DNA from: an uncultured Croceitalea sp.
GTDB taxonomy: Bacteria; Bacteroidota; Bacteroidia; Flavobacteriales; Flavobacteriaceae
Length of the DNA stretch: 64,000 nt
Assembly (NCBI GenBank): GCA_947503285.1
Contig: CANNDD010000004.1
Location: 372,001 to 436,000 of the forward strand
Direction: 5' to 3'
Below are positions 1,794 through 46,930 of this stretch, piece by piece (positions within the stretch are counted from its first letter, which is position 1; each line of letters opens with the position of its first letter). Made by a program: the position numbers and the translations under genes. Below the pieces are notes generated by a model. It was not told the DNA's origin. It did not search any database and saw only the letters and a program-made list of their open reading frames with translations.

Positions 1794-3620
1794 TCAGTTC
1801 GATGTTCCATACGCCTTGTCGGTCAATGTGCTCATAAAAGCGATAATGGCCTCGGTCTCTTTTGTTGTGAGGCCAAGGGAATCTGGAGGTAACGTTTGAT
1901 ACGGAACCTCAAGGCCCATACCTTGACCACCACCCACATTATAAAAATTCATGACCTCATCTAGGGTTTGGTAGACCCCATTATGCATATAGGGTGCAGT
2001 AAGTGCTATATTTCGTACCGTTGAAGTCTTAAAGAACGATTTTCTTTCCGCCACCTCATAAGGAAAATATTGTCCTAAATCCCCATCAAGTATGGGATGT
2101 TCAAAACTCGCGTTTTTCGGAACACCCAAATTTTCAAACTCGGTTTCCATGTACTTGGGGGGTACGGTACCGTTAAAAGCCGGCGGAAAATGACAAGTAG
2201 CACAGGCCGCCTTCCCCATGAACAGATTAAAACCAAGTTTTTCTTTAGGGGTCAACGATTCTTCTTTGCCCTGCATGTTTTTATCAAACTTAGAATCAAA
2301 TGGTGCCAAACTTCGTATGTAAGTGGCCATGGCATGTCGCACATTACGATTGGTGACCCCATTGGGGTACAACGAATCAAATTGCGATTGATACATCGTA
2401 TTGTTCTTGACCCTTTCTTCCATAGTGTTCAGGTCTACATGGAATTCATTTTCATTATTGGCCACACTGACGATTTGGGCCTCTAAGCCATCACCCCTAC
2501 CATCATAGAACATGGTGGTCTGATAAACGGCGTACGACAATGTGGGGGTATTTCGCAACAAAGGCCTGCCATCGTTGCCCAAAGCCTTCGGATAACCGTC
2601 TGTAAATGCCTTTTCTTTGATATGACAGGTGGCACAGCTCATCAGGCCATCTTTTGACAGTGCCTTATCGTTGAATAAGGTTCGCCCCAGTGAAACCCTT
2701 TCTTCAGTAATGGGCGGGGAACCGGGTAACGAAAACATTTTAAGATTGAAAAAATCCTTTGCAAAAAGATTTTCAGAAGTGGGGTTTAAAGCCCTTGATG
2801 TATTTAATTTGATATTCAAGTCTTGAGCAGTGCGGTTGACAAGTTTCAATTGTTGGTTCGTATGGTCTTTTATAAACGTATAGCGATCAAAAGAATCAAA
2901 ATCCGAAGCTTGTAAAAATCGTATGGAGGCATCTATCGCTGCGACCCAATCAGACTGTATTGATTTATCAGTATAGGCATCTTTAAAAATGTCCATCACC
3001 TGTTTGAGGGTGATGTAATTTTGAACGGCCTCCTCCAATGAATTCGAGAGCATTGGGGAGTCAAATCCCGTTATTCCCTTAGTAGCGATGTTAACAATGG
3101 CATCCCTCACCATTTTCAAATGATGCCGGTTTGTTTGTCTATATATGATATGGTTTCTTCGTATGTAGGGTATCCTGACTTGAAGATAGTTGATGACCCG
3201 ATGCATTTCTTCATGCTTGATGTCATCTTCCCCAAAAAGCATTTCCTCCAGAACTTGATAGCTTTTTGGTTTTACCACTTTAATGTCTTGATAGTCATCT
3301 ATCTCAACTTTTAAAAGATTTGGGGCGTTCATAGAGAGGTAATTCTGATAGTCATAGGCCATGAGCAAGGGTTCTACCCTTTTGTACCATTTTCTGCTGT
3401 TGAGAAACGCTGTTCTGTTTTTACTTAATGGGTTCAAGGTATCCAATTGTTGCATGTAAAAAGCGGCACTGTCCAGTGTCTTGAAGTAATATTGCCTAAT
3501 AGCTTCGTTATATGGCGAAGCACCATTGGCCACTACTTCTTTTGAAACGGTTTTATTTTTACAGGATAAGACTAAAAAAAATAATACGAATACATTAAAA
3601 AATACGCGATGGATATGCAT
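1794..3620 (-). CDS. Di-haem cytochrome c peroxidase (MauG/CcpA-like) lipoprotein
   Basis: This 608-residue exported protein has a lipobox ending LVLSC (Cys20), so it is probably anchored to a membrane in the periplasm. Two c-type haem sites are visible: CATCH at residues 329-333 and CATCH at 473-477. They are followed by family-typical stretches (LLRNTPTLSYA, and STVRNIALTAPYMHNGVYQTLDEV), as in bacterial di-haem peroxidases that reduce hydrogen peroxide. The first roughly 280 residues form a mostly helical extra domain not found in short CcpA enzymes; it may be imelysin-like but I could not confirm this. A terminator separates it from the gene upstream on the same strand. Confidence 0.85.
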   Translation of the reverse strand: MHIHRVFFNVFVLFFLVLSCKNKTVSKEVVANGASPYNEAIRQYYFKTLDSAAFYMQQLDTLNPLSKNRTAFLNSRKWYKRVEPLLMAYDYQNYLSMNAPNLLKVEIDDYQDIKVVKPKSYQVLEEMLFGEDDIKHEEMHRVINYLQVRIPYIRRNHIIYRQTNRHHLKMVRDAIVNIATKGITGFDSPMLSNSLEEAVQNYITLKQVMDIFKDAYTDKSIQSDWVAAIDASIRFLQASDFDSFDRYTFIKDHTNQQLKLVNRTAQDLNIKLNTSRALNPTSENLFAKDFFNLKMFSLPGSPPITEERVSLGRTLFNDKALSKDGLMSCATCHIKEKAFTDGYPKALGNDGRPLLRNTPTLSYAVYQTTMFYDGRGDGLEAQIVSVANNENEFHVDLNTMEERVKNNTMYQSQFDSLYPNGVTNRNVRHAMATYIRSLAPFDSKFDKNMQGKEESLTPKEKLGFNLFMGKAACATCHFPPAFNGTVPPKYMETEFENLGVPKNASFEHPILDGDLGQYFPYEVAERKSFFKTSTVRNIALTAPYMHNGVYQTLDEVMNFYNVGGGQGMGLEVPYQTLPPDSLGLTTKETEAIIAFMSTLTDKAYGTSN

Positions 3621-3643
3621 AAGGGAAAACGTGTTTTAATCAT

Positions 3644-3675
3644 AAAAGGTTCCCACTTTTCAGCGGGAACCTTTT
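3644..3675 (-). terminator. Rho-independent terminator
   Basis: An 11-bp perfect stem (AAAAGGTTCCC / GGGAACCTTTT) with a 10-nt loop lies just after the stop of the PhoX-like gene on the minus strand. It ends in a short T run, so it should stop that transcript before the peroxidase gene. Confidence 0.7.
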
Positions 3676-3696
3676 GTTTAAGTTATTTCAAAAAAA

Positions 3697-5307
3697 CTAT
3701 CTTGGTAAGCCTGTAATCTTAAACAAGAAGGAACCTTCCAACCTTGCCGATCCTTCATCAATAGCCGTGGGATCATAGAACTTGAGTCCATCGGCCCTTA
3801 CCGCAGTTGCAGGTGTTGTGCTAAAATTCCACCCGTGCACTTGTGCACCGCCTAGAAAGGTCGGTTCACTGGCCCCAATGATATCGGTGACATCGATAAG
3901 ACCCGTAATTTCCCAGTAATTGGTCAATGTGCCATACCCCAATTCCGTCGCAGCGGTCTGGTTACACTCCATGACCTCGATAACAGCGCCTGTGGCAATT
4001 TCATACTGCCATAACTTGGCATAGCCTTGAATATCAGGATTCAAATCTTGGTACCCATTAGGGTCTTCTTGAATGTAAACATAGTTCTGGGTAACCAAAA
4101 TATTGTCTGGGGAATGCATTCCGTCGCCATTACCGCCTTCGCGGTCACCGTCGATGACCACTGTGATCTTGGCATCACCAGTCGGATCATCAGGATTTAG
4201 CTCCAACTTGTACACCCTGCCAAAAGTAGTACCCCTATTGGCCAAATCTGGGTTATCAGAACGGTATCTTCCTGTGGCATTGAAATAAATGTTTCTATTG
4301 TTGTCGGCAGAACCTCGTTGCCAATCAATATCCTCGATACGTTGAAACCCAATAGCAACGGAATCAATAGCCTCTTGGTTCAATTCATCAATGGTTCTTT
4401 CGGTCATCCTCACCCATTCCACCTCATATTCGGCATCTTCAACCATACCCATCTCAAATTTTAGGCCACCACCGCCAATAGCGGTTTCCGTAGTGTCTTT
4501 TCCGCGAAGTACGTAAAGTTCCCCTCCGCTTAAATCGCCACGACTGCCCACATACATGGCAAAGTGTGATTCTGGATAGGAGTTGTTACTGTCATCATCG
4601 CCCATAAAAACCACTGTTTGGCTTGGATAGGCATCTTTTCCAATAACAACGGCATTTTCAGTCGACCACTCCCCAAGGGCCGGCAACCTCTCTGCTTCTA
4701 CACGATCATCAGGACTTCTGAATGGGTTTACCCGGTAAACGCCTTTGGCATTGCCGCCCCATTCGCCACCAGAAAGGTACAACGGTCCAAAACCGTGCTC
4801 TTCGGGAGTAATTGAAGAACCGGAACATTGTGCGGTAAAAGCGGTGGCCGTTGCGCTAACGATATAATCCCCTTCCATAGGTTGAAGGTCACGGTTCATT
4901 CGAATGCGGGCTATTGAAAAATCTGATTCTAAATTGTTGATAAACGCATAGGTACCATCATTGTTTCGATATAAGGCCGCTCCGTCCATAAAAGAACCGT
5001 AAACAAAGGTAGAATCAGAGGGAAGAATGTCGGCGGATGACAAGACCATCTCAAGATTGGCACTGCCTGCGAAACCGCCTTTGAGTTCGAATACCTCATC
5101 AGGGACCACAGAAGATTCTAGGGGTACCAAATCGTCTACGGTCAAATCTTGTCCGTCTTCCCCATCTGCGCCGTCAACGCCATCCTGACCATCGACCCCA
5201 TCGATGCCGTCACGGCCATCTAGACCATCTTCTCCTTCACAACCAACGAACCCAATGGAAAGGGAGGTCAGAAATAAAAGGGTTACTACAATTTTTTTCA
5301 TGTACAT
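3697..5307 (-). CDS. PhoX-like (DUF839) lipoprotein with collagen-like stalk
   Basis: A 536-residue exported lipoprotein: the lipobox is GFVGC (Cys23; a second ATG two codons in, at 5301, is equally possible). Right after the Cys comes a collagen-like GxD stretch of about nine Gly-X-Asp triplets (residues 24-52), probably a rigid spacer. The remaining roughly 470 residues resemble the DUF839/PhoX beta-propeller family: VVFMGDDDSNNSYPESHFAMY and PDNILVTQNYVYIQEDPNGY match positions used by PhoX-type proteins. Phosphatase activity is not shown, since I could not locate a full metal-ligand set. It lies upstream of the di-haem peroxidase on the same strand. Confidence 0.6.
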   Translation of the reverse strand: MYMKKIVVTLLFLTSLSIGFVGCEGEDGLDGRDGIDGVDGQDGVDGADGEDGQDLTVDDLVPLESSVVPDEVFELKGGFAGSANLEMVLSSADILPSDSTFVYGSFMDGAALYRNNDGTYAFINNLESDFSIARIRMNRDLQPMEGDYIVSATATAFTAQCSGSSITPEEHGFGPLYLSGGEWGGNAKGVYRVNPFRSPDDRVEAERLPALGEWSTENAVVIGKDAYPSQTVVFMGDDDSNNSYPESHFAMYVGSRGDLSGGELYVLRGKDTTETAIGGGGLKFEMGMVEDAEYEVEWVRMTERTIDELNQEAIDSVAIGFQRIEDIDWQRGSADNNRNIYFNATGRYRSDNPDLANRGTTFGRVYKLELNPDDPTGDAKITVVIDGDREGGNGDGMHSPDNILVTQNYVYIQEDPNGYQDLNPDIQGYAKLWQYEIATGAVIEVMECNQTAATELGYGTLTNYWEITGLIDVTDIIGASEPTFLGGAQVHGWNFSTTPATAVRADGLKFYDPTAIDEGSARLEGSFLFKITGLPR

Positions 5308-7461: not shown

Positions 7462-8946
7462 ATGAAAAAAACAACTCTTTCGTTGGCTGCATTATTTGCA
7501 GTGTTTGCCTTGTATTCGCAATCCCGTAAACTTCCTATTGACACTACGGTAACCACACAACATAGCGTCACCATAAACGGTGCATCCATCAATTATACGG
7601 CAACGACCGGCACACAACCTGTTTGGGACGAAATGGGGGAACCCATTGCATCGTTACATTATACCTATTACACTAGAAACAATGTAAAGGATAGAACAAA
7701 GCGACCCTTATTGATTTCCTTTAACGGTGGTCCTGGCTCAGGCTCCGTATGGATGCATTTAGCCTACACCGGCCCTCGTATACTCAAAATCGATGATGAG
7801 GGCTATCCCGTACAGCCTTATGGGGTTAAGGAAAACCCTTTCTCTGTGCTAGACGTTACCGATATTGTCTATGTCAACCCAGCAAATACCGGCTATTCAA
7901 GAACTATTCCTGAAAGTGGTAAGGAAGTGGATCGTGAAAAGTTTTTTGGTATTAACGCCGATATCCAATACCTGGCCGAGTGGTTGAATACTTTTGTGAC
8001 CCGAAATAATAGGTGGCGCTCCCCAAAATATATTGTTGGGGAAAGTTATGGTGGCACCCGTGTCATGGGGCTTTCACTGGCCTTGCAAAACCAACAATGG
8101 ATGTATTTGAATGGGGTAATTATGGTCTCACCCGCTGATTATAAATTGTACAATACCGGTGGTGCCGTCGAAAATGCCATCAGTCTACCGTATTTTACCG
8201 CCGCCGCTTGGCACCACAAGGCTTTACCACCAGAATTACAACAAAAAGACCTTTTAGAGGTGTTGCCAGAATCTGAAGGTTATGCTGTGAACACCCTGAT
8301 TCCGGCATTGGCCAAAGGAGGATTCATCGGTGAGACGGAAAAGAATACCGTAGCAGAAAAAATGGCGTATTATTCGGGACTTTCAAAAAAGGAGATATTG
8401 GATCAAAACCTTGTAGTACCCGTTCAATATTTTTGGAAAAACCTTTTAAAAGACCGCGGTTATACCATAGGCAGGTTAGATTCCCGTTACTTGGGGACCG
8501 ATCGGCAATTGGCCGGTATGCGCCCCGATTATAGTGCGGAACTCACCTCATGGCTCCATAGTTTTACCCCTGCGATCAATTATTATCTACAAGAGGAACT
8601 CAACTTCAAAACGGATATTAAATACAATATGTTCGGACCTGTCCGCCCCTGGAACAATGATGATGACAATACAAGGGATAACCTCCGTCAGGCAATGGCC
8701 CAGAACCCTTATCTCAATGTATTGATACAATCAGGCTACTACGACGGTGCAACCACCTATTTTCAGGCTAAATATACCATGTGGCAGGTTGATCCAAGTG
8801 GAAATATGAAAGACCGATTTGAGTTTAAAGGGTACCGCTCTGGCCATATGATGTACCTCAGACGTGAGGATCTACAAAAAGCCAATGACGACATCCGCGC
8901 GTTTATCAAAAGGACTTCGAATACGGGCAAAAGCGCCAAATACTAA
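7462..8946 (+). CDS. Peptidase S10 family serine carboxypeptidase
   Basis: A 494-residue secreted protein with a signal peptide (residues 1-19, ending ALYSQ). It has the S10 hallmarks: FNGGPGSGSVW (oxyanion region, near residue 88) and VGESYGG with the catalytic Ser195. The rest of the triad is probably the Asp in SGYYDGATTY and the His in YRSGHMMYLR near the C-terminus. It should trim C-terminal residues from peptides in the periplasm or outside the cell. It is followed 10 bp later by a small secreted protein and an SGNH hydrolase, a likely operon of exported hydrolases. Confidence 0.88.
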   Translation: MKKTTLSLAALFAVFALYSQSRKLPIDTTVTTQHSVTINGASINYTATTGTQPVWDEMGEPIASLHYTYYTRNNVKDRTKRPLLISFNGGPGSGSVWMHLAYTGPRILKIDDEGYPVQPYGVKENPFSVLDVTDIVYVNPANTGYSRTIPESGKEVDREKFFGINADIQYLAEWLNTFVTRNNRWRSPKYIVGESYGGTRVMGLSLALQNQQWMYLNGVIMVSPADYKLYNTGGAVENAISLPYFTAAAWHHKALPPELQQKDLLEVLPESEGYAVNTLIPALAKGGFIGETEKNTVAEKMAYYSGLSKKEILDQNLVVPVQYFWKNLLKDRGYTIGRLDSRYLGTDRQLAGMRPDYSAELTSWLHSFTPAINYYLQEELNFKTDIKYNMFGPVRPWNNDDDNTRDNLRQAMAQNPYLNVLIQSGYYDGATTYFQAKYTMWQVDPSGNMKDRFEFKGYRSGHMMYLRREDLQKANDDIRAFIKRTSNTGKSAKY

Positions 8947-9544: not shown

Positions 9545-10227
9545 TGACCAAAACCAAAATCATTTTGTTAGTCCTTGTATCAATTTTTACGGCTTCACAA
9601 AAAATAAAAGCCCAAGATTGGCCCAACTTGGAAAAGTACAAAAGCGCCAATGAAAAACTAGAGTCGCCAAAAAGCGATGAAAATAGGGTTGTTTTTATGG
9701 GTAATTCCATCACGGAAAGTTGGCCAAAAAAATTCTTTCATGGAAAACCGTACGTAAATCGGGGCATTAGCGGACAAACAACACCGCAGATGTTGCTTCG
9801 TTTTCGGCAAGATGTCATCAACCTACGGCCAAAAGTGGTGCTGATTTTAGCTGGTACCAATGATATTGCCAAAAACACGGGGCCGATTACCCTTGAAGAA
9901 ATTCGAGATAATATTTTGTCTATGGTAGAATTGGCAAAGGCTAATAATATTACCCCTGTAGTTTGTTCAGTTTTACCGGCATACGACTACCCCTGGCGGG
10001 AAGAAAAATTACAGCCCAATATCAAAATCCCAAAATTGAACGGGATGTTGAAATCCATGGCAGCAAACCAAAAGGTGCCTTATTTGGATTATTTTTCTGA
10101 AATGGCCGACGATAGAAATGGTTTGCCCAAAGAATTGACCACTGATGAGGTACACCTCACCCCAAAAGGGTATGCGATTCTTGGTAAAATGGCGGAAGCC
10201 CAAATCGCCAAGGTTTTAAAAAGATAA
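9544..10227 (+). CDS. SGNH/GDSL hydrolase, secreted
   Basis: A 227-residue esterase-type hydrolase with a signal peptide (residues 1-23). SGNH blocks appear in order: block I MGNSITESW (Ser nucleophile, near residue 54), block II GISGQTTPQM (Gly), block III ILAGTNDIA (Asn), block V DEVHLTPKGY (Asp and His near 210). This arrangement is typical of exported carbohydrate esterases and lysophospholipase-like enzymes; deacetylation of polysaccharide is plausible but not shown. Its start overlaps the stop of the preceding secreted protein gene. Confidence 0.87.
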   Translation: MTKTKIILLVLVSIFTASQKIKAQDWPNLEKYKSANEKLESPKSDENRVVFMGNSITESWPKKFFHGKPYVNRGISGQTTPQMLLRFRQDVINLRPKVVLILAGTNDIAKNTGPITLEEIRDNILSMVELAKANNITPVVCSVLPAYDYPWREEKLQPNIKIPKLNGMLKSMAANQKVPYLDYFSEMADDRNGLPKELTTDEVHLTPKGYAILGKMAEAQIAKVLKR

Positions 10228-10234
10228 ACCTGAT

Positions 10235-11230
10235 TTGGTCAGTATTCTTATTCCCTTTAAAAATACGGCACATTTTCTGCCGGAATGCCTAGGTTCTATT
10301 TGCGCACAGTCTTATCAAGATTGGGAGGTCATTGCCATTGATGACCATTCAGATGATGCCAGTCGCCAAGTGGCGGAAGGTTTTGCACAAAAAGACCCTC
10401 GAATCAAAGTGCATGCCAATGAGGGCAAAGGAATTATCACTGCCTTACGAACCGCATATCGATTGAGTACCGGAAACTATATCACCCGAATGGATTCTGA
10501 CGATATCATGAAACCTGACCGCCTTGAAGTAATGCGAACAGCTCTATTCAAGTTCGGTAAAGGTCATATCGCCGTGGGTCAAGTACGGTATTTTTCAGCT
10601 AGGGGCATTAGTAACGGATACCAACGTTATGAAGCATGGCTCAACGATTTGACCAAAAAAGGGAGCAACTACTCAGAGATTTACAAAGAATGTGTCATAC
10701 CCTCACCCTGCTGGCTCATTCATAGAGACGATTTTGAACTATGTAAGGGTTTTGAACCCAATCGCTATCCTGAAGACTATGACCTTACCTTTCGATTTTA
10801 TGAAAGGGGGATAAAAGTGATTCCATGCGATAAAGTGCTTCATTTATGGCGCGATTATGACACCCGAACCTCAAGAACCCATGAACATTATGCCCAAAAT
10901 TATTTTTTGGATATTAAAATCCACTATTTTCTAAGGCTCGATTACGATAGAAAAAGACCTTTGGTGGTCTGGGGGGCAGGTTTTAAGGGCAAAACCATTG
11001 CCAAAGTGCTCCTAGAGCGCGAAATCCCCTTTTTATGGTTATGTGACAATCCCAAAAAAATCAATAAAAAAATATATGGTAAATGCCTGTATTATTTTTC
11101 AGAACTTGAAAACCTTGATAATCCGCAAAGCATTGTAACCGTGGCCAATGAAGATGCGCAAAAAGACATCAAGGATTACTTTAGAAATCGGAACCAACGC
11201 TCCATGCAAGATTTCTTTTTCTTTTGCTAA
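10235..11230 (+). CDS. Family 2 glycosyltransferase with C-terminal Rossmann-like domain
   Basis: A 331-residue cytosolic protein starting with TTG at 10235, 7 bp after the SGNH hydrolase gene. The GT-A domain begins directly (SILIPFKN) and contains the metal-binding motif in TRMDSDDIMKPDRL (near residue 90). Acceptor-side features include PSPCWLIHRDDFELCKGF and YPEDYDLTFRF. The last roughly 95 residues form a second domain that starts PLVVWGAGFKGKTIAKVL, a glycine-rich nucleotide-binding-like loop. Such two-domain GT2 proteins are seen in Bacteroidota. It transfers a sugar to an unknown acceptor. Confidence 0.82.
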   Translation: MVSILIPFKNTAHFLPECLGSICAQSYQDWEVIAIDDHSDDASRQVAEGFAQKDPRIKVHANEGKGIITALRTAYRLSTGNYITRMDSDDIMKPDRLEVMRTALFKFGKGHIAVGQVRYFSARGISNGYQRYEAWLNDLTKKGSNYSEIYKECVIPSPCWLIHRDDFELCKGFEPNRYPEDYDLTFRFYERGIKVIPCDKVLHLWRDYDTRTSRTHEHYAQNYFLDIKIHYFLRLDYDRKRPLVVWGAGFKGKTIAKVLLEREIPFLWLCDNPKKINKKIYGKCLYYFSELENLDNPQSIVTVANEDAQKDIKDYFRNRNQRSMQDFFFFC

Positions 11231-13341: not shown

Positions 13342-14594
13342 ACCTACTTCTTAAGTCTGCCAAAATATACGCTCCCGCTACTGCTGCACTCCACCATAAG
13401 ACTAGGGACATATTGATTGCCAATGGTACGATAACCAAAATAGCTGCGAAAATAGCCCTACCAAAAAACACCACGGAAATAAAACTGGACAATCTCTGCG
13501 TCTCTGTGGGTTGGTTTGACAGTAGTGTCAGTTTTGGGGAACCCGGCTATGAAGAACGTGAGACTATTGCCAATGGCCTTGAGGTGGCCGGTAAAAGCGG
13601 TTTTACCGATATTTTGCTCAATGCCAATACCAAACCTTTGCCGAATACGGGGTCTGACATAGTTTTTTTAAAGGAAAGTTCTCGAAGTAGTAGTACGACC
13701 CTGCATCCTTTGGGGGCATTGACCTTTGATGGAAAAGGTGATGCACTGGCTGAGCTGTTCAACATGCACACCATGGGTGCGGTAGCATTCTATGACTATA
13801 AACGTGCTATCAACAACAGTAACCTATTAAAAATCGCACTGCTCTATGCACAGAATTTTGATGGGCTTGTATGTTCTTTTCCTGAGGATGTGGCCATAAA
13901 GGGCAGAGGAATCGTTAATGAAGGGGAAATATCCACAAAATTAGGTCTTAAGGGTATTCCGAGTCTTAGCGAAGAACTTCAAATAGCCCGAGACCTTTAT
14001 ATTCTGGAATATACCGGGGGCAAGCTTCACATTCCGACGATTTCAACGGCAGCGTCGGTCAAGCTCATTGCCAATGCCAAGAAAAAAGGATTGAACGTTA
14101 CCACCAGTGTCGCCATTCATAATCTGGTACTTTGCGATGAGGAATTGGAAAGTTTCGACACCAATTTTAAGGTCAAACCCCCACTTCGAACAAAGCGGGA
14201 TACGATATTCTTGGCCAAAGGGGTACAAAATGGAACGATAGACTTTGTGACCTCAGATCACAGACCCATGACCATTGAAGAAAAACGAGTGGAGTTTGAC
14301 AACGCAGGTTTTGGCACTATAGGTTTAGAAAGTGCTTTTGGCGCCTTGAACAATCTCTATGGCGTTGATGGGGCCATTACCTATTTGACAAAAGGCCGGG
14401 AACGTTTCGGAATGGATACCCCTAAAATCGAAGAAGGCCAAAAAGCATGCCTGACACTTTTCGACCCAGAGGTAAAATATGTTTTTGAAGGGAAGGATAT
14501 CCATTCAAAATCGAAAAACGCCATTTTCTTGGGGAAAGAATTGAAAGGGAAGGTCTACGGCAGTATCAACAACGGAAAATCCATTTTGAAGTAA
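13338..14594 (+). CDS. Dihydroorotase-like protein lacking the HxH metal site
   Basis: A 418-residue amidohydrolase-fold protein; the ATG at 13338 overlaps the BatA-like stop (ATGA). Overall it follows dihydroorotase (GEPGYEERETIANGLEVAGKSGF, then VKPPLRTKRD). The canonical D-x-H-x-H-x-R-E-P-G motif reads DSSVSFGEPG at residues 61-70, so both metal-binding His and the substrate Arg are lost. The late TDHAPH motif reads TSDHRPMT. A normal binuclear zinc site is therefore unlikely. It may be a structural or regulatory pseudo-dihydroorotase, or have a new activity. Automated annotation would call it pyrC; I advise against that symbol. Confidence 0.8.
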   Translation: MNLLLKSAKIYAPATAALHHKTRDILIANGTITKIAAKIALPKNTTEIKLDNLCVSVGWFDSSVSFGEPGYEERETIANGLEVAGKSGFTDILLNANTKPLPNTGSDIVFLKESSRSSSTTLHPLGALTFDGKGDALAELFNMHTMGAVAFYDYKRAINNSNLLKIALLYAQNFDGLVCSFPEDVAIKGRGIVNEGEISTKLGLKGIPSLSEELQIARDLYILEYTGGKLHIPTISTAASVKLIANAKKKGLNVTTSVAIHNLVLCDEELESFDTNFKVKPPLRTKRDTIFLAKGVQNGTIDFVTSDHRPMTIEEKRVEFDNAGFGTIGLESAFGALNNLYGVDGAITYLTKGRERFGMDTPKIEEGQKACLTLFDPEVKYVFEGKDIHSKSKNAIFLGKELKGKVYGSINNGKSILK

Positions 14595-40688: not shown

Positions 40689-40895
40689 CCTTTGAAACTA
40701 TTGCTGTTTTTGCTTTACGTATTTTGTATCTCATTTTAAGGATGATATATTTTTTATATATCTAGCACCTAGGCCTTTAAAAATTGGTTTCCCCTAATGG
40801 TATTGGCTTCAAGGCGTTATGACTATATTTAGCATTGGGTAAAACTACACCTACTTTAAAGGTTGTACGTCATTCAAAAAAACATCCGTCAATCA

Positions 40896-41711
40896 ATGAA
40901 CTATCAAACATTTCAACCAAATCCTATTTTGCAATCGCTTATCAGTTGTTATTGGACTTTAGAAGTTCCTGCGGACCCTAATACTAAAAAACAAAGGATA
41001 ATTCCAGACGGAACAATTGAAATGGCTTTTATACTTGGAGATGATATTAAAAGATATACTTCCGAAAATGAATTCATTATACAACCTCGTGCAATGGTTC
41101 TTGGACAAACAATAGCGCCGTTTTATATCGAACCAACAGGATATGTAAATACTTTTGCAATTCGTTTTTACCCTTACGGTTTTGGGAATTTTGTAGATAT
41201 ACCGATTAAAAATTTAGCCAATAAAGAAACACCTATTGAGTTTTTGTTCGGAGAAAAAACGGCTAATGAATTAGAGCAAAAAATAATTCAGGCAACTAAT
41301 AGTATTGAACGAATGGAAATTATTGAAAATTTTCTATTGGATAAATTAAATGATAAAAATACAATTGACAATATAGTGAAAACGACGATTGATGCTCTTT
41401 TAGCAACAAACGGAAGTGCTTCGATAAGTACAATTCTTAAAGAAGATTTATCAAAACGGAGACAACTCGAACGGAAATTTATAAGACAAATTGGTGTTAG
41501 TCCAAAACAATTGGGCAAAGTAATCCGACTACAAACTGCCCTAAAAATGCTACTTAATAAAAAGTCTGAAAAATTGACTGATATTGCGTATGAAAGTGAA
41601 TACTTCGACCAAGCCCATTTTATAAAAGATTTTAAAGAATTTACCGGAATTAATCCAAAGGAGTTTTTAGGTAATGAAAATATGACACTTTCTACCCTTT
41701 TCTACAAATAG
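40896..41711 (+). CDS. AraC-family transcriptional regulator
   Basis: A 271-residue protein; the ATG at 40896 (MNYQTFQPNPILQSLISCYW) is preferred to the TTG at 40863. The N-terminal domain contains RIIPDGTIEMAFILGDD and FAIRFYPYGFGNF, as in the DUF6597 sensor domain. The C-terminal double helix-turn-helix has LERKFIRQIGVSPKQLGKVIR and DIAYESEYFDQAHFIKDFKEF. The gene is much AT-richer than its neighbours upstream (a sampled 60-bp line has about 25% G+C) and belongs to the first cassette-like module with the VOC lipoprotein. Confidence 0.87.
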   Translation: MNYQTFQPNPILQSLISCYWTLEVPADPNTKKQRIIPDGTIEMAFILGDDIKRYTSENEFIIQPRAMVLGQTIAPFYIEPTGYVNTFAIRFYPYGFGNFVDIPIKNLANKETPIEFLFGEKTANELEQKIIQATNSIERMEIIENFLLDKLNDKNTIDNIVKTTIDALLATNGSASISTILKEDLSKRRQLERKFIRQIGVSPKQLGKVIRLQTALKMLLNKKSEKLTDIAYESEYFDQAHFIKDFKEFTGINPKEFLGNENMTLSTLFYK

Positions 41712-41754
41712 TCAGCGTGTCGCATTTTTACAATTTTTGTAATTAAACCTAATT

Positions 41755-41762
41755 TAAATTTG
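41755..41762 (+). promoter_or_regulatory. Candidate -7 promoter element (TAAATTTG)
   Basis: An exact TAnnTTTG match 24 nt before the VOC lipoprotein start. A TTG lies at 41737-41739 (15-nt spacing). Confidence 0.45.
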
Positions 41763-41786
41763 TCTTGTTAAAACAAACAGGACGAA

Positions 41787-42329
41787 ATGAAAAAATCCAT
41801 TCTTTACACAGCCATAATTCTTTCCTTTAATATTACAGCCTGTAAAAATCAAAACAAATCAAAGACCGAAACTATCTCGGTTAAATCTAATATTGATCAA
41901 CAAACAAAAGAAATGAACAGTTATATTTCAATTTTTGAAATTCCAGCAACAGACATTACAAGAGCAGTGAATTTTTATCAAGCAATTTTGGACATTTACA
42001 TTGAGAAAATTGAAATGCCCGGAATGGAAATGGGGATATTCCCTTATGAAGAACAAATGGTTACGGGAGTAATTGTTAAAACAGAAGGAGATAAACCTTC
42101 GGCTAATGGCGTAACTATATACCTAAATGGAGGGGATAATCTTCAAATTATTCTTGACAAAGTTGAGAAAAATGGAGGCGAAATAATGGTGCCAAAATCG
42201 CCTCATGCAGATGAAAGTGGTTATTACGCTCTATTTCTAGACTCGGAAGGAAATAAAATTGGCCTGCATCCCCAAATTAAACACAGGAAAAAGAACGAAC
42301 GCACAACAACGTATATTTCTCATAGCTAA
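41787..42329 (+). CDS. VOC-fold lipoprotein
   Basis: A 180-residue exported lipoprotein (lipobox NITAC, Cys19). The mature part is a single VOC/glyoxalase-like domain: SIFEIPATDITRAVNFYQAI starts the first betaalphabetabetabeta unit and GYYALFLDSEGNKIGLHP closes it. Periplasmic location is unusual for this family, which is normally cytosolic. The upstream AraC gene is its likely regulator. The last codons (TTTYISHS) lie inside a cassette-boundary repeat that starts at 42301. Confidence 0.78.
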   Translation: MKKSILYTAIILSFNITACKNQNKSKTETISVKSNIDQQTKEMNSYISIFEIPATDITRAVNFYQAILDIYIEKIEMPGMEMGIFPYEEQMVTGVIVKTEGDKPSANGVTIYLNGGDNLQIILDKVEKNGGEIMVPKSPHADESGYYALFLDSEGNKIGLHPQIKHRKKNERTTTYISHS

Positions 42330-42631
42330 TTAGTTGCCAATCTTAAGTTAGTGCATATTTGCAAAATTGCCAGATTTTCAAATTTGGCTTGTGCTTAACC
42401 GAAAAAAACTCATTTTTTTACGCTACGAGCCATATACAAACCGGTGATGTCGAATTGTTCATTGTATTTTATTGTTTTTCAAAGGTATTCATGTGTTCGC
42501 TGTGCTCGAAAGCACCGCCTAAGCACAATTCCAATATCGCTGAAAACCCTAACGGGATTTTCGCTATATTTCCATAAAATTGGACGGACTACACAACCTG
42601 CCCACCTACGTAGGATAATGCTGCGTTGTGC
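42301..42631. repeat. Structured cassette-boundary element between two gene modules
   Basis: The element starts with GCACAAC (42301-42307) and ends with its inverse GTTGTGC (42625-42631). GTATATTTCTCATAGC (42311-42326) is mirrored by GCTACGAGCCATATAC (42422-42437) with 13 of 16 matches. Between these arms is a smaller hairpin, GCCAGATTT / AAATTTGGC (42369-42388, one mismatch). The palindrome CCTACGTAGG is at 42606-42615. Sequences with the word GCTACGAGCCATATACAAACCG recur in Bacteroidota genomes at the ends of unrelated accessory genes. Confidence 0.55.
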
Positions 42632-42677
42632 CTCTTTTTAAGGGGACATATTACATAAAAAAGCATATTGAAATTGA
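42330..42677. other. 348-bp intergenic region
   Basis: Filled mainly by the cassette-boundary element described separately. Two short frames cross it on the plus strand but run through the palindromic arms and look like chance frames. The promoter of the next gene probably lies in the last 50 bp; no TAnnTTTG match was found. Confidence 0.5.
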
Positions 42678-43775
42678 ATGAAATTATTTTCTACGATAAT
42701 TGTCATACTTGGAATTGCACAAGGTTTGTTTATAGGCACTGCTTTATTACTCGAAAGAACCTACTCGTCAAAAAAAAATAAATTCATTGGAGCCAGTTTA
42801 ATTTTATTTTCATTACAAGGAATTCTCGATTTACTTTCATTTTGGGAATTGGACACAAAATATCTTTGGGTAGAAATCATAACCAATTTTGGCTTGCAAG
42901 GGTTAGTCTTTATTCCCTACTTTTTTTCAGTTTTAGCAAGTACAAATACCAAGTTGCCCTTACCAAGAATGACCCTTTTTATTCCTTTTGCATTAAGCTC
43001 ATTATATGGAATTCTTGCCACATTCGTTTCGGTTTTTGGAGTTAAGAATTTGTATATAAATCGGTTATGGTTAAATGAGCTTTGGTCATTTCATTGGTAT
43101 TTTAATATGTTATTTGTTTTGATTATGAACTTTTATTTGTTCAGAATAATAAAAAACACAGATTCTAAAAATAAAAAACATGGGGCTTATACATTATATC
43201 TATCATTTACTATTCTGATTGGATTATGGCTTGTTATCAACCTTCTAAACCTGTTCTTTTCTAGTGAGTTGTATTACTTAATCGTTCTTACCATTTTTTG
43301 GGGCAGTTTTACTTGTTTTATTTTTTGGTTGGCCTACAAAGGGGTTGTTCAACAACGACTAATCCATGAACAAAAAAGCTTACATCTTATACTCAGTCAA
43401 TCAGAACCGCAAGGGAACATAAGGCAATCAATCCCAAATACCTATTACGAACAGTTTATTCGATTGATAAGAGAAAATAAAATCTATCGTGATGTTGATC
43501 TAGATAGAGATAAAGTTGCTAAAAAGCTTGGTATTAGCTCAGGTTATTTTTCTACTATGTTGAGCCAATCCTCCGATAAATCATTTAATGAAATATTGAA
43601 CGAATATCGGGTTAAAGAAGTAAAGAAAATACTACAAGACGGAAGTCTTGACCACTTTAGCATAACTGCAATCGGCTTAGAAGTAGGGTTCAAATCTAAA
43701 TCGAACTTTTTCACCAACTTTAAAAGCATAACAGGCTTAACACCAAACGACTATAAAAAAAAGTTTCAGTCCTGA
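42678..43775 (+). CDS. AraC-family regulator with membrane-embedded N-terminus
   Basis: A 365-residue protein of the same architecture as the one at 29074-30162: about seven membrane segments in residues 1-225 (IIVILGIAQGLFIGTALLL; FLYLIMNF-like and YYLIVLTIFWGSFTCFIFWL segments), then an AraC-type DNA-binding domain. The helix-turn-helix pair includes DKVAKKLGISSGYFSTMLSQ and ITAIGLEVGFKSKSNFFTNF, ending ITGLTPNDYKKKF. AT-rich codon use. It is the first gene of the second cassette-like module and probably regulates the two serine hydrolase genes that follow. Confidence 0.87.
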   Translation: MKLFSTIIVILGIAQGLFIGTALLLERTYSSKKNKFIGASLILFSLQGILDLLSFWELDTKYLWVEIITNFGLQGLVFIPYFFSVLASTNTKLPLPRMTLFIPFALSSLYGILATFVSVFGVKNLYINRLWLNELWSFHWYFNMLFVLIMNFYLFRIIKNTDSKNKKHGAYTLYLSFTILIGLWLVINLLNLFFSSELYYLIVLTIFWGSFTCFIFWLAYKGVVQQRLIHEQKSLHLILSQSEPQGNIRQSIPNTYYEQFIRLIRENKIYRDVDLDRDKVAKKLGISSGYFSTMLSQSSDKSFNEILNEYRVKEVKKILQDGSLDHFSITAIGLEVGFKSKSNFFTNFKSITGLTPNDYKKKFQS

Positions 43776-43832
43776 TTTGTTAGAATTGAACAGGTTAGAA
43801 CCGATAATATTTTATTGAACCTAACCATAGAG

Positions 43833-43840
43833 TAATTTTG
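43833..43840 (+). promoter_or_regulatory. Candidate -7 promoter element (TAATTTTG)
   Basis: An exact TAnnTTTG match 27 nt before the first serine hydrolase start. GGTTAG (43793-43798) and CTAACC (43821-43826) form an inverted repeat just upstream, a possible operator for the AraC-type regulator. Confidence 0.45.
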
Positions 43841-43867
43841 AAGCCATAAAATTACAATCACTTCAAC

Positions 43868-45058
43868 ATGTTCAGATTAGTCATTACACCAATTTTTATT
43901 CTATGTTTTCAAGTTAGTAGCCATGCGCAATCAGTTCATGAAAAATTAACTGACGAATTAGAAATTATCTCAAATCGTAATTCCATTAAGGGTTTTGGAG
44001 TTGCAATTTTCTCAAAAGACACACTGCTCTATACTAGGGGTTTCGGAGTTGTGTCTGATAATAAAGATGAAAAATACACCACTAGAACGAGGCAAAAAAT
44101 TGCTTCAGTATCCAAATTATTGCTTGGTGTTTCTCTATTAAAAGCTCAAGAATTAGGGTTACTTCAAATAGATGATAAGATTAATGATTATTTACCATTT
44201 GCAATTGTCAACCCCTACTTTCCATATGAAGACATCACCATTCGACATTTAGCAACCCATACAAGTGGATTGGCAAAAACCCCAAAATATGACCTTAAGG
44301 CGCTATACGCCCCAACAAAGATTCCAAAAATAAAACGAGAAATGCCATTTGGAATAAGAAGGTTATTTTTCAACAGGGCCATAAAAACCATTAATTCAAA
44401 CAAAGAATATCATCTTGAAGACTTCCTTATCAATCTTTATTCCCCTAATGGAAAATGGTATGGTAAAAAACACTTCAGAAAGGTGAAACCCGGTGATATG
44501 ACCGAATATAGCAATTCTGGAGCAAGTTTATTGGCTTTAGTAATTCAAAAAGCAAGTGGAATCAGCTATGCAGCATTTGTAAGAAAGTATATAATCGAGC
44601 CATTACAATTGGAAAGCTCTAAGTTCGATTTTGAACTATCACATGCCGTGAATGAGCCTACCCATTATTATCATGCAGGCATAAATATTCCTAATAACTA
44701 TAAACTTCTTCTGTATCCTGCTGGTGGCTTTGAATCTACGGTAGAGGGTTTTTCAATTTTAATGAATACTGTAATTAATGGGTATTCCATACTCTCAAAG
44801 GAATCTGTTAAAGAAATGCTGACACCGCAGTTTAAAACGGAATACGGCATTCTTTGGGAAGTCTATCCAAGTGGTTTTGTAGGTCATAGTGGTGACATGC
44901 TAGGGGTAAAAACCTTTGCATATTATAACATCAATAAGAACATCGGCTACCTATTATTCTGTAACACGGCAGGAACCAAAACAATTGAAAAAGAAACGGA
45001 AGAGATTAAAAATGTTTTGAAAAGCTACTTCAATAAATTCGCTACAACCCATGAATAA
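43868..45058 (+). CDS. Secreted serine hydrolase of the class C beta-lactamase/PBP fold
   Basis: A 396-residue protein with a signal peptide (ending SSHAQ). The three active-site motifs of the fold are present: SVSK (Ser80-Lys83), YSN in the stretch DMTEYSNSGASLLALV, and HSG in the stretch VGHSGDMLGVKTF. Members act as D,D-peptidases, esterases or beta-lactamases; sequence alone does not tell which. It overlaps the next hydrolase gene by 8 bp, so they form an operon. Confidence 0.85.
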   Translation: MFRLVITPIFILCFQVSSHAQSVHEKLTDELEIISNRNSIKGFGVAIFSKDTLLYTRGFGVVSDNKDEKYTTRTRQKIASVSKLLLGVSLLKAQELGLLQIDDKINDYLPFAIVNPYFPYEDITIRHLATHTSGLAKTPKYDLKALYAPTKIPKIKREMPFGIRRLFFNRAIKTINSNKEYHLEDFLINLYSPNGKWYGKKHFRKVKPGDMTEYSNSGASLLALVIQKASGISYAAFVRKYIIEPLQLESSKFDFELSHAVNEPTHYYHAGINIPNNYKLLLYPAGGFESTVEGFSILMNTVINGYSILSKESVKEMLTPQFKTEYGILWEVYPSGFVGHSGDMLGVKTFAYYNINKNIGYLLFCNTAGTKTIEKETEEIKNVLKSYFNKFATTHE

Positions 45059-46292
45059 TATTTCAAAAGCCTATGGCCAACCCAAAAGATTCTATTTCTA
45101 TTTAATTCTCTTTCTAGTCTTTGGTTGTTCAGGGAAAGAAGATGTTATTGATAGTTATATTGGCTTTGACGTTTCAAGAGAAATGTTAGACCAACATTTA
45201 AAAAAACGAATGGGGGAATTGAATATTCCTGGAATGTCCATTGCTATTATAAATGATGGTAAAATAGCTTATAAAAACACCTTCGGATATGAAAATATTT
45301 TGAAAAGGGAACACGTAACCAGTCAAACTATTTTTGAAGGAGCGTCCATTTCAAAATCTGTATTTGCGTTTTTCATAATGACCTTCATCGAGGAGGGAAA
45401 ATTGGATTTAGACAAGCCTTTGTTTGAATACTATCCCCATCCAGACATTGAAGATGATGAGAGATACAAAAAGATAACCGCAAGGATGGTTTTATGCCAT
45501 CGGTCGGGGTTCCCTAACTGGAGGGAAAGTGAAGATGACAAAAAACTTAAAACAAAGTTTGAGCCAAATACAGACTACTTATATTCAGGAGAAGGATTTC
45601 AGTATCTCGCAATGGTATTAATGCACATAGAAAACACTGACCATCAAGGATTGGAGAAGCTTTTTCAAGAGAGAATAGCTAAACCTATAGGACTTGAGCA
45701 TACTGTCTTTATTCAAACACCATATACAAGAAAACACAAAGCAGAGCCATATGACGAAGATGGAAATTGGATAGATTGGCGTAGTGACTATTGGATTCAA
45801 AAAGAAGATGGAAAATTTTACGCCCCCTCATCAATACATTCAGAATCCGTTGATTTTTCCAAATGGATGATAGCCGTTATGCATAAAGAGTTTTTATCGG
45901 AAGAATCGTATAGTGAAATGCTAAAGCCTCATTCAAAAGTTCCTTTTGATGGCGTAAATGTTTCGTATACATTGGGGTTTTTAACACCTCATTTCCCACT
46001 GACCGATATTTATCTACATTCGGGTAATAACGAAGGGTTTACATCTTGGTATGCTTTAGACACCGAAAAAGATTGGGGATTTGTTCTTTTTACCAATTCT
46101 GAATTTGGCGAACAACTCGGACAAGAATTGTTCTTTTATTTGCTGACCGGACCAGATTTATACAAACTTTATACGATTCTGGGAATCATCGTTATGATAG
46201 TACTTTCGGGATTAATATTTGGAATACGATTGGTATTTAGAAAACTAAAAAACGGAAGGCACAACATTCGTAACCGTTTCGCTAGCCCATGA
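45051..46292 (+). CDS. Serine hydrolase lipoprotein of the beta-lactamase/PBP fold
   Basis: A 413-residue lipoprotein (lipobox LVFGC, Cys26). Active-site motifs: SISK (Ser99-Lys102), YSG in DYLYSGEGFQYLAMVLM in place of YxN, and HSG in YLHSGNNEGFTSWYAL. A membrane segment near the C-terminus (TILGIIVMIVLSGLIFGIRL) would anchor it a second time, an unusual combination with the lipid anchor. The last residues (HNIRNRFASP) are encoded by the GCACAAC-containing boundary repeat at 46259 onward. Confidence 0.83.
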   Translation: MNNISKAYGQPKRFYFYLILFLVFGCSGKEDVIDSYIGFDVSREMLDQHLKKRMGELNIPGMSIAIINDGKIAYKNTFGYENILKREHVTSQTIFEGASISKSVFAFFIMTFIEEGKLDLDKPLFEYYPHPDIEDDERYKKITARMVLCHRSGFPNWRESEDDKKLKTKFEPNTDYLYSGEGFQYLAMVLMHIENTDHQGLEKLFQERIAKPIGLEHTVFIQTPYTRKHKAEPYDEDGNWIDWRSDYWIQKEDGKFYAPSSIHSESVDFSKWMIAVMHKEFLSEESYSEMLKPHSKVPFDGVNVSYTLGFLTPHFPLTDIYLHSGNNEGFTSWYALDTEKDWGFVLFTNSEFGEQLGQELFFYLLTGPDLYKLYTILGIIVMIVLSGLIFGIRLVFRKLKNGRHNIRNRFASP

Positions 46293-46308
46293 TTTTCAAA
46301 ATCACGGA
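46259..46308. repeat. Second cassette-boundary repeat
   Basis: GCACAAC at 46259-46265 followed after 17 nt by TAGC and then a palindrome ATGATTTTcAAAATCAc (46289-46305). The same order GCACAAC-N15-TAGC is seen at 42301-42326. In both cases the stop codon of the last cassette gene is just behind TAGC. Confidence 0.45.
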
Positions 46309-46930
46309 TTGCATATAAGCTGTTTTTAAGAGGCCTTTTTCTTGTCGTTCTAGATATGCAGCGACAATTCTCTATACCTTATGAATGTAACCTTCCCTAA
46401 AAATGAAGCCTTCCCTATTTTTCGGGTAAATTGAAAATCCACGAATTGACTATCCCTGTAGCATTCACGGTTTCTTGCCAAACGGATGATTTCAATGAAT
46501 CGTTGAAAAACATATTGAAATTAAAAAACAACAAACGAAACTATAAACTTAAGGGCGTTACGGTTAAATCACTTAATCGAAAGAAATCAGAGATCCATGT
46601 AAAAGGCTTAAAACGATACTTACAGGTATTCGTTGAGTACACCCTGGTACTTTTTCCTTCATTTGCTTGTGTTCCCTTCAAAATAGTTCTGACAATGGCA
46701 TTAACCTCAATTAGGACTCGAAAAAATTGGAATACGAACATTAAAAACGCAAACAAATAAAAATTGATAAGACTTGTCTAGAATAATAACGTTTGGGTCA
46801 AATTACTTTTGCAGGTTATTTGAAACCTATCCCGGAAAACAAGTTTAGATTTTTCTTAGTCACAGTGCAGCAGGTATCCCAGAGAATGGCTAAGTAAAAA
46901 TGCTATTACGCTATAGCCTGCAGAACTCTC
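46293..46930. other. 638-bp region without a convincing gene
   Basis: The left end carries the boundary repeat of the second cassette. The direct repeat CCTTCCCTA occurs twice near 46390 and 46410. A 109-codon frame from a TTG at 46431 exists (MKIHELTIPVAFTVSCQTDD at its start), but composition and late low-complexity residues make a functional gene doubtful. It could be the remnant of a lost gene. Confidence 0.4.

Follow-up and report, generated by a model that had tools for sequence, protein, structure and literature searches.

A block at 40.8 to 46.3 kb of a 64,000-nucleotide stretch of DNA from an uncultured Croceitalea sp. (the whole stretch is hereafter called the window) very probably consists of two accessory gene cassettes belonging to an integron-like site-specific recombination system, the sites, arrays, and recombinase of which are found in its relatives. 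A preliminary description, made from the letters of the window, had proposed two AT-rich modules delimited by GTTGTRC/GCACAAC boxes and had likened them to integron cassettes. The idea of a cassette system is borne out by hundreds of homologous, arrayed sites across the family and by a tyrosine recombinase linked to them; the likeness to integrons holds for the general logic of the system, though it is not a textbook integron. The first module combines an AraC regulator (DUF6597) with a VOC lipoprotein-like protein and the second an AraC regulator with two PF00144 serine hydrolases, and, as had been claimed, all five genes lie on the + strand. Read as cassettes, the parts of the block are as follows.

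40862-40874, + strand: start core of cassette 1, GTT-GTACGT-C-ATT, with a putative crossover at G^TT, complementary to the cassette's own end
40896-41711, + strand: AraC-family regulator of cassette 1 (Pfam DUF6597 and HTH_18)
41787-42329, + strand: VOC (glyoxalase-fold) lipoprotein-like protein of cassette 1 (Pfam PF00903), its frame continuing into the site
42295-42442, + strand: attC-like site, comprising R'' (ACGAACGCACAAC, 42295-42307), L'' (42308-42326), a variable middle, L' (GCTACGAGCCATATAC, 42422-42437), and a broken R'
42443-42624, no strand assigned: insert interrupting the R' box; sites of genome G082 carry homologous inserts at the equivalent position
42625-42637, + strand: start core of candidate cassette 2, GTT-GTGCCT-C-TTT, placed relative to the insert as GTT-n7-ATT is in G082
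42678-43775, + strand: AraC-family regulator of candidate cassette 2, with an N-terminal membrane region (Pfam HTH_18)
43868-45058, + strand: serine hydrolase of candidate cassette 2, beta-lactamase-like family PF00144 (Pfam)
45051-46292, + strand: second PF00144 serine hydrolase of candidate cassette 2 (Pfam)
46253-46265, + strand: end core of candidate cassette 2, CGGA-AGGCAC-AAC, assigned by its core match to 42625-42633

All four boxes stand where they had been placed (GTTGTAC at 40862-40868, GCACAAC at 42301-42307, GTTGTGC at 42625-42631, and GCACAAC at 46259-46265). As a 7-mer, GTTGTRC occurs 13 times in the window against 10.8 expected, which is no enrichment, and hence the box by itself proves nothing; what rises above chance is the pairing of the boxes and the structure of the site, not the 7-mer itself. 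The low G+C of the block also stands (33.8% at 40689-46930 against 40.4% for the window), although the 25% and 47% originally quoted were single-line extremes. The element at 42301-42631, which had been taken as one unit, is instead a composite of a site and an insert of about 180 bp. As a whole it has no second copy detectable by blastn in its own genome because its divergent site part is recovered by profiles only; nevertheless, it has relatives, its first ~145 bases being matched by blastn in many Flavobacteriaceae among the 148 related genomes that we compared.

The site between the modules scores 66 bits with the hidden Markov model (HMM) of the family, and a whole-genome search with a covariance model trained exclusively on other genomes recovers it with an E value of 6.5e-6. 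Its 5' half, at 42305, scores 23.5 bits versus -0.5 for the next best place in the 64 kb, and both this half and the 3' half rank first on the window's + strand. It is the only recognizable site in the window. The short pattern GCACAACNACGTAT, with 2 mismatches allowed, gave no more matches than its reversed control. Owing to the broken R' arm, the 346-nt piece of the window folds only modestly. The ~180-bp insert that breaks the arm shows 77-79% identity to several G082 copies, with the junctions CC|G.TGATGT and GCTGC|GTT common to both; after the insert, GTT-n7-ATT resumes in G082, and GTTGTGCC takes that place in the window. The copies of this insert family in G082 reach ~470 bp; members lie on locus L076 at ~3290-3720, 4420-4760, 9606-10000, and 14030-14165, and ~37 bp of the insert recurs in G003, G005, G039, and G018. 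One possibility suggested by these sequences is that the insert may be a mobile element targeting attC-like sites.

In the relatives, homologous sites form one-directional series. Full copies begin with NNNNAAC-A..G..TATA.. and finish with ..CATA....CGTTRNNN, and they fall into two sharp length classes of about 115-129 or 180-194 bases from AAC to GTT. Arrays were found with at least 58 sites in 46 kb (G075), 51 in 44 kb (G047), and 45 in 52 kb (G021), with every site on the same strand, and a search of three arrays against Rfam returned no family matches beyond one tRNA. If these arrays are made of cassettes, the bases after GTT (the cassette start) can be compared with those before the AAC of the next site (the cassette end). 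At least 5 complementary bases were present in 73 of 79 consecutive site pairs less than 1.5 kb apart, whereas 10,000 permutations of the 79 pairs gave a maximum of 13 and a mean of 3.1; the corresponding controls stood at 2.3% for sites from different loci and 7% for the two ends of the same site. In a larger set, 250 of 280 consecutive pairs agree over about 7 bases as reverse complements. A typical match has 7 bases, then a fixed A at the start (319/330) opposite a C at the end (288/322), and two further pairs; a second form, to which the modules of the window belong, pairs GTT-n6-C-ATT with ACGA-n6-AAC. The 253 cassettes with matched cores, from 19 genomes, have a median length of 769 bp including the site (95th percentile, 2.0 kb) and usually carry one gene, with 220 of 224 open reading frames of at least 80 aa pointing in the direction of the array. 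An exception to the one-directional arrangement was seen in G046:C25 (L065), in which sites at 8611-8801 (-) and 9710-9901 (+) face apart with ~1 kb between them.

Duplicated cassettes within a genome are near-identical between CG^TT edges and unrelated outside them. In most pairs, about 60 of 60 bases are identical inside versus about 20-30 of 60 outside, with both edges at CG^TT; an 807-bp duplicate in G063, for example, has 60/60 inside each edge and 26/60 and 25/60 outside. These edges, along with those of module 1 in other genera, point to a crossover at G^TT. One cassette is common to G004 and G021, with 85% DNA identity. Near-identical small cassettes may also be repeated in one array, such as those of ~557 bp, four times in G021 (L107, L156), and of 474 bp, four times in G075 (L103, L158).

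The sites are also predicted to fold as hairpins. Of the 12 stem pairs predicted, 8 covary across 40 short sites, with both sides changing and the pair being kept. When the sites of excised circles were reconstructed by restoring each cassette's own start to its site, the bottom strand was predicted to be more stable in 74 of 83 (P = 2e-12; a result of the energy model only), with mean folding energies of -30.6 kcal/mol for the bottom strand versus -27.1 kcal/mol for the top; relative to shuffles, z was -5.3, with 39 of 40 below -2. A plausible cause of this bias is that the conserved A.C mismatches of the top strand would become T.G wobbles in the bottom strand.

Comparison with other genera indicates that module 1 is a cassette: the AraC-VOC pair occurs in six other genera, in several of them bounded by GTT or GCACAAC edges that match, and the sister species lack it at the same locus. 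The AraC regulator is 71.6-88.6% identical in the six genera, with the VOC gene adjoining each time, and the VOC protein is 58-79% identical in seven, the seventh being without the AraC partner; no other VOC homologue was found in the genus of the window. The homologous cassettes of G026, G070, and G028 start with GTTGTGTGTCATT, GTTGTGCGTCACT, and GTTGTGTGTCAAT, respectively, at a similar spacing to the AraC start, the unrelated flanks switching to GTTGTG.GTCA.. ~30-36 bp before it. At the other end, the module finishes in GCGAACGCACAAC in G070, G066, and G028, with a complete site next in G070 and G066; in G025, G082, and G084 its edges are eroded or absent. Within the window, its cores take the form GTT-GTACGT-C-ATT/ACGA-ACGCAC-AAC, with one mismatch, and GTTGTGCGTCATT, with at most 1 mismatch allowed and both strands searched, has a single match, at 40862 (0.10 expected). 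At 42260-42329, the VOC frame continues into the recombination site, whereas its homologues in other genera end ~60 bp earlier, which suggests a small frameshift close to the 3' end. In G026 (L245, ~515-579 and ~2160-2226), two cassettes, AraC+VOC being the first, are each preceded by the same ~65-bp sequence, which bears a dyad and ends in ATAATT|GTTGT; this sequence resembles the attI-like site found behind recombinases elsewhere, and no recombinase of the type described below is listed for G026.

Immediately ahead of the arrays, and on their strand, lies the gene for a tyrosine recombinase, mostly of 372-399 aa and with catalytic residues invariant in the alignments. The first matched cassette lies 36-111 bp past its stop codon at about half of the examined loci, often just after a dyad such as ATAAACGCAATTGCGTTTAT or GGCTAAACGTAATATTACGCTTAGCC, which we take as a putative attI-like site; in the remaining loci the first recognized match is further downstream, or none was found. 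Its N-terminal ~80 residues share no Pfam family across members and have no match at all in most of them. When modeled alone (predicted local distance difference test score, 87), this domain has as its best structural neighbors UvsW, XPB, and, lower, the HARP DNA recognition domains of SMARCAL1, although these matches are weak (Z up to 6.8, under 8, with 64 residues aligned at 2.7 Å; best Foldseek E, 0.07). Because a loose TIGR02249 search also returns XerC/D in most genomes, linkage was counted by the N-terminal domain instead. Sites (E of ≤0.01) occur in 94 of the 148 relatives, mostly of the same family, Flavobacteriaceae, and recombinases with this domain in 60; 59 of these 60 have sites, compared with 35 of the other 88 (Fisher P = 3e-15). 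Among named genomes, the recombinase was found in Flavobacteriales, Cytophagales, Saprospirales, Sphingobacteriales, and Bacteroidales records. Winogradskyella ursingii, Seonamhaeicola aphaedonensis, and Algibacter onchidii are among those in which an array follows it; the surroundings of the non-Bacteroidota recombinases returned by the same scan yielded no site. The repeat-linked tyrosine recombinase for which a search had been proposed is present in the relatives, whereas the window's own genome has 30 candidate sites, including a main array of 13 on one strand (C2:714-731 kb), and no recombinase with the array-type N-terminal domain. In its absence, the two cassettes would form an isolated pair, probably immobile, at a distance from the main array. 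Plasmids of Bacteroidota, gut species among them, also encode relatives of the recombinase that are nearly full length and retain the N-terminal region (NZ_CP081918.1 of Bacteroides ovatus, NZ_OY725747.1 of Parabacteroides distasonis, and NZ_CP094530.1 of Chryseobacterium oryzae).

Several observations weigh against this interpretation. Core matching used sites called by the family's own HMM; the window's site is broken by the insert; the 24 bases upstream of cassette 1 are unlike a site half (rank 126), making the upstream edge of module 1 unlike an array junction; in L109 the neighboring recombinase points away from the array; and the 35 site-bearing genomes in which no recombinase of this kind was detected include that of the window. 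Others concern module 2. The proposed division into two modules is upheld for module 1, the boundaries of which are the same in other genera, whereas module 2 shows a core match at its right end but no recognizable site there: after 46265 the downstream half ranks 1717 in window scoring. Further, no close homologue of the module was found elsewhere in the 148 genomes, the hydrolase at 43868-45058 having no match at an E of ≤1e-60 except at 35-39% identity in G033, and hence its boundaries rest on 9 matched bases. At 3.6 kb, it is also long for a cassette when set against the 95th percentile. With neither a terminal site nor a homologous cassette, it is conceivable, if unlikely, that module 2 is not a cassette but an unrelated operon caught between the insert and a chance GCACAAC, which would leave module 1 as the only cassette. 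However, the module starts exactly where the G082 inserts predict, is AT-rich and regulator-first like module 1, and is absent from the relatives. Moreover, in its core pair (GTT-GTGCCT-C-TTT/CGGA-AGGCAC-AAC), the 9 bases at 42625-42633 are complementary to those at 46257-46265, and AGGCACAAC occurs exactly twice in the window, once at each end of the module (0.33 expected). We conclude that module 2, too, is probably a cassette.

The parallels with integrons, such as the sedentary chromosomal integron of Vibrio cholerae, are extensive: a recombinase adjoins an attachment site at which the array begins; the arrays are long, one-directional, and made of small one-gene cassettes with ends complementary within each cassette; the sites are imperfect hairpins folding better on the bottom strand; and the crossover, as deduced here from sequence, is at G^TT. 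This shared logic raises the possibility of an ordinary integron with a divergent IntI and attC sites merely scored low by standard tools, and indeed TIGR02249 matches the recombinase with an E value of about 1e-60, its modeled catalytic part resembles both XerA and VchIntIA, and the NCBIfam model NF040815 bears the title "site-specific tyrosine recombinase/integron integrase." We nevertheless consider this improbable. In all seven array-type proteins, TIGR02249 scores 188-208 against a cutoff of 265, and its alignment omits profile positions of about 180-239, where the domain lies that PMC9668308 terms IntI-specific and describes as required by IntegronFinder; the alignment to VchIntIA (2a3v) is interrupted at that same point, and the recombinase alignment holds no such insertion. 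In likeness, XerA and NF040815 come first and IntI after them. In addition to lacking the IntI-specific domain and having an extra N-terminal one, the recombinase gene reads toward the array, with the first cassette about 40-110 bp behind its stop; the paired cores span about 10 bases rather than 7, with the fixed A.C mismatch; only 24 of 330 fit GTTRRRY and 18 of 322 RYYYAAC, even with GTT and AAC fixed by the search pattern; and the sites show the two sharp length classes. Since neither the IntI-specific domain nor the canonical cores are present, we call the system "integron-like."

Other known systems offer partial parallels. Like CALINs (clusters of attC sites lacking an integrase), the window's own genome has site arrays and stray cassettes with no linked recombinase, but its sites are a new family rather than the canonical attC family. 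The chromosomal integrons of Treponema also lie outside Proteobacteria, and their intI reads in the direction of the array, as the recombinase does here; their IntI is canonical. XerA/XerC/XerD (NF040815; PDB 5hxy and 4a8e) provide the best match to the catalytic core in sequence and structure but resolve chromosome dimers at dif and have no linkage to cassette arrays. Finally, the HARP, XPB damage recognition, and UvsW N-terminal domains, which the predicted fold of the first 80 residues weakly matches, sit on helicases, unlike the domain found here. Taking these together, the system follows an integron-like logic and is possibly an independent class. As to the stronger proposal, that it constitutes a second, independently assembled integron class across Bacteroidota, forming large cassette reservoirs and combining an Xer core and its own hairpin sites with a domain binding branched DNA in place of the IntI-specific domain, we regard it as an even call.

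The similarity between sites would suffice for homologous recombination between dispersed repeats, and the 35 genomes with sites and no detected recombinase would accord with arrays built with no dedicated enzyme. This is highly improbable given that the edges of duplicated units fall at CG^TT rather than being scattered over the 120-190-bp repeat and that matched cores and linkage to one recombinase family accompany them. That each module is a transposon or a miniature inverted-repeat transposable element-like unit, as the short inverted repeats at its ends might suggest, is extremely improbable, because the repeats vary between cassettes and match only within one, which a fixed-end transposase does not allow, and because the same hairpin lies at only one end of each unit in one-directional arrays. 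The differing ends of the cassettes do not fit a DNA transposon with constant terminal repeats. Ordinary operons were considered as an explanation and rejected.

For the integron-like system, we propose that the Xer-type recombinase encoded just upstream of the first cassette would act on the attI-like dyad behind its own gene, recombining it at G^TT with the attC-like hairpin site that ends each cassette. A cassette would have the layout TT-n7-A...gene(s)...C-n7-AAC-hairpin-G, and in the excised circle its two n7 boxes would become the outer arms of one long hairpin, with the bottom strand pairing best. Catalysis, the use of single-stranded bottom-strand DNA, and the circular intermediate are steps that we infer; the N-terminal HARP/XPB-like domain might serve to grip the folded site.

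Integrons have been reported as rare in Bacteroidota: a survey with IntegronFinder 2.0 recorded a single complete integron in Bacteroidetes, that of Salinibacter, its other elements there being integrase-only (PMC9024848). Our search of the open literature, with preprints and most subscription journals outside its coverage, returned no description of these arrays; the demand of detection tools for the IntI-specific domain is the probable reason that they were overlooked. With sites in nearly two-thirds of the relatives and arrays of 40-60 cassettes or more, they represent an extensive, so far unmapped reservoir of mobile genes in bacteria that are abundant. The system also allows one to test whether the IntI-specific domain is essential to integron chemistry or replaceable by another module.

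The interval between the GNAT and aminotransferase genes in which the block lies (40689-46930; orthologous loci L124-L129) varies in content among same-genus genomes, mostly with no recognizable sites. The modules are absent from this locus in those genomes, against the possibility raised earlier that all relatives share them; the interval there holds 0.7-6.7 kb of other genes. In G008 it is only 0.1 kb long. From these comparisons it appears to be a general insertion hot spot. A ~230-bp mini-cassette with the ends GTTGTGCATA and TATGCACAAC was also observed in G000:C13 at ~42454-42680 (L111, ~10454-10680), near a 264-aa Xer-like recombinase that has no N-terminal domain.

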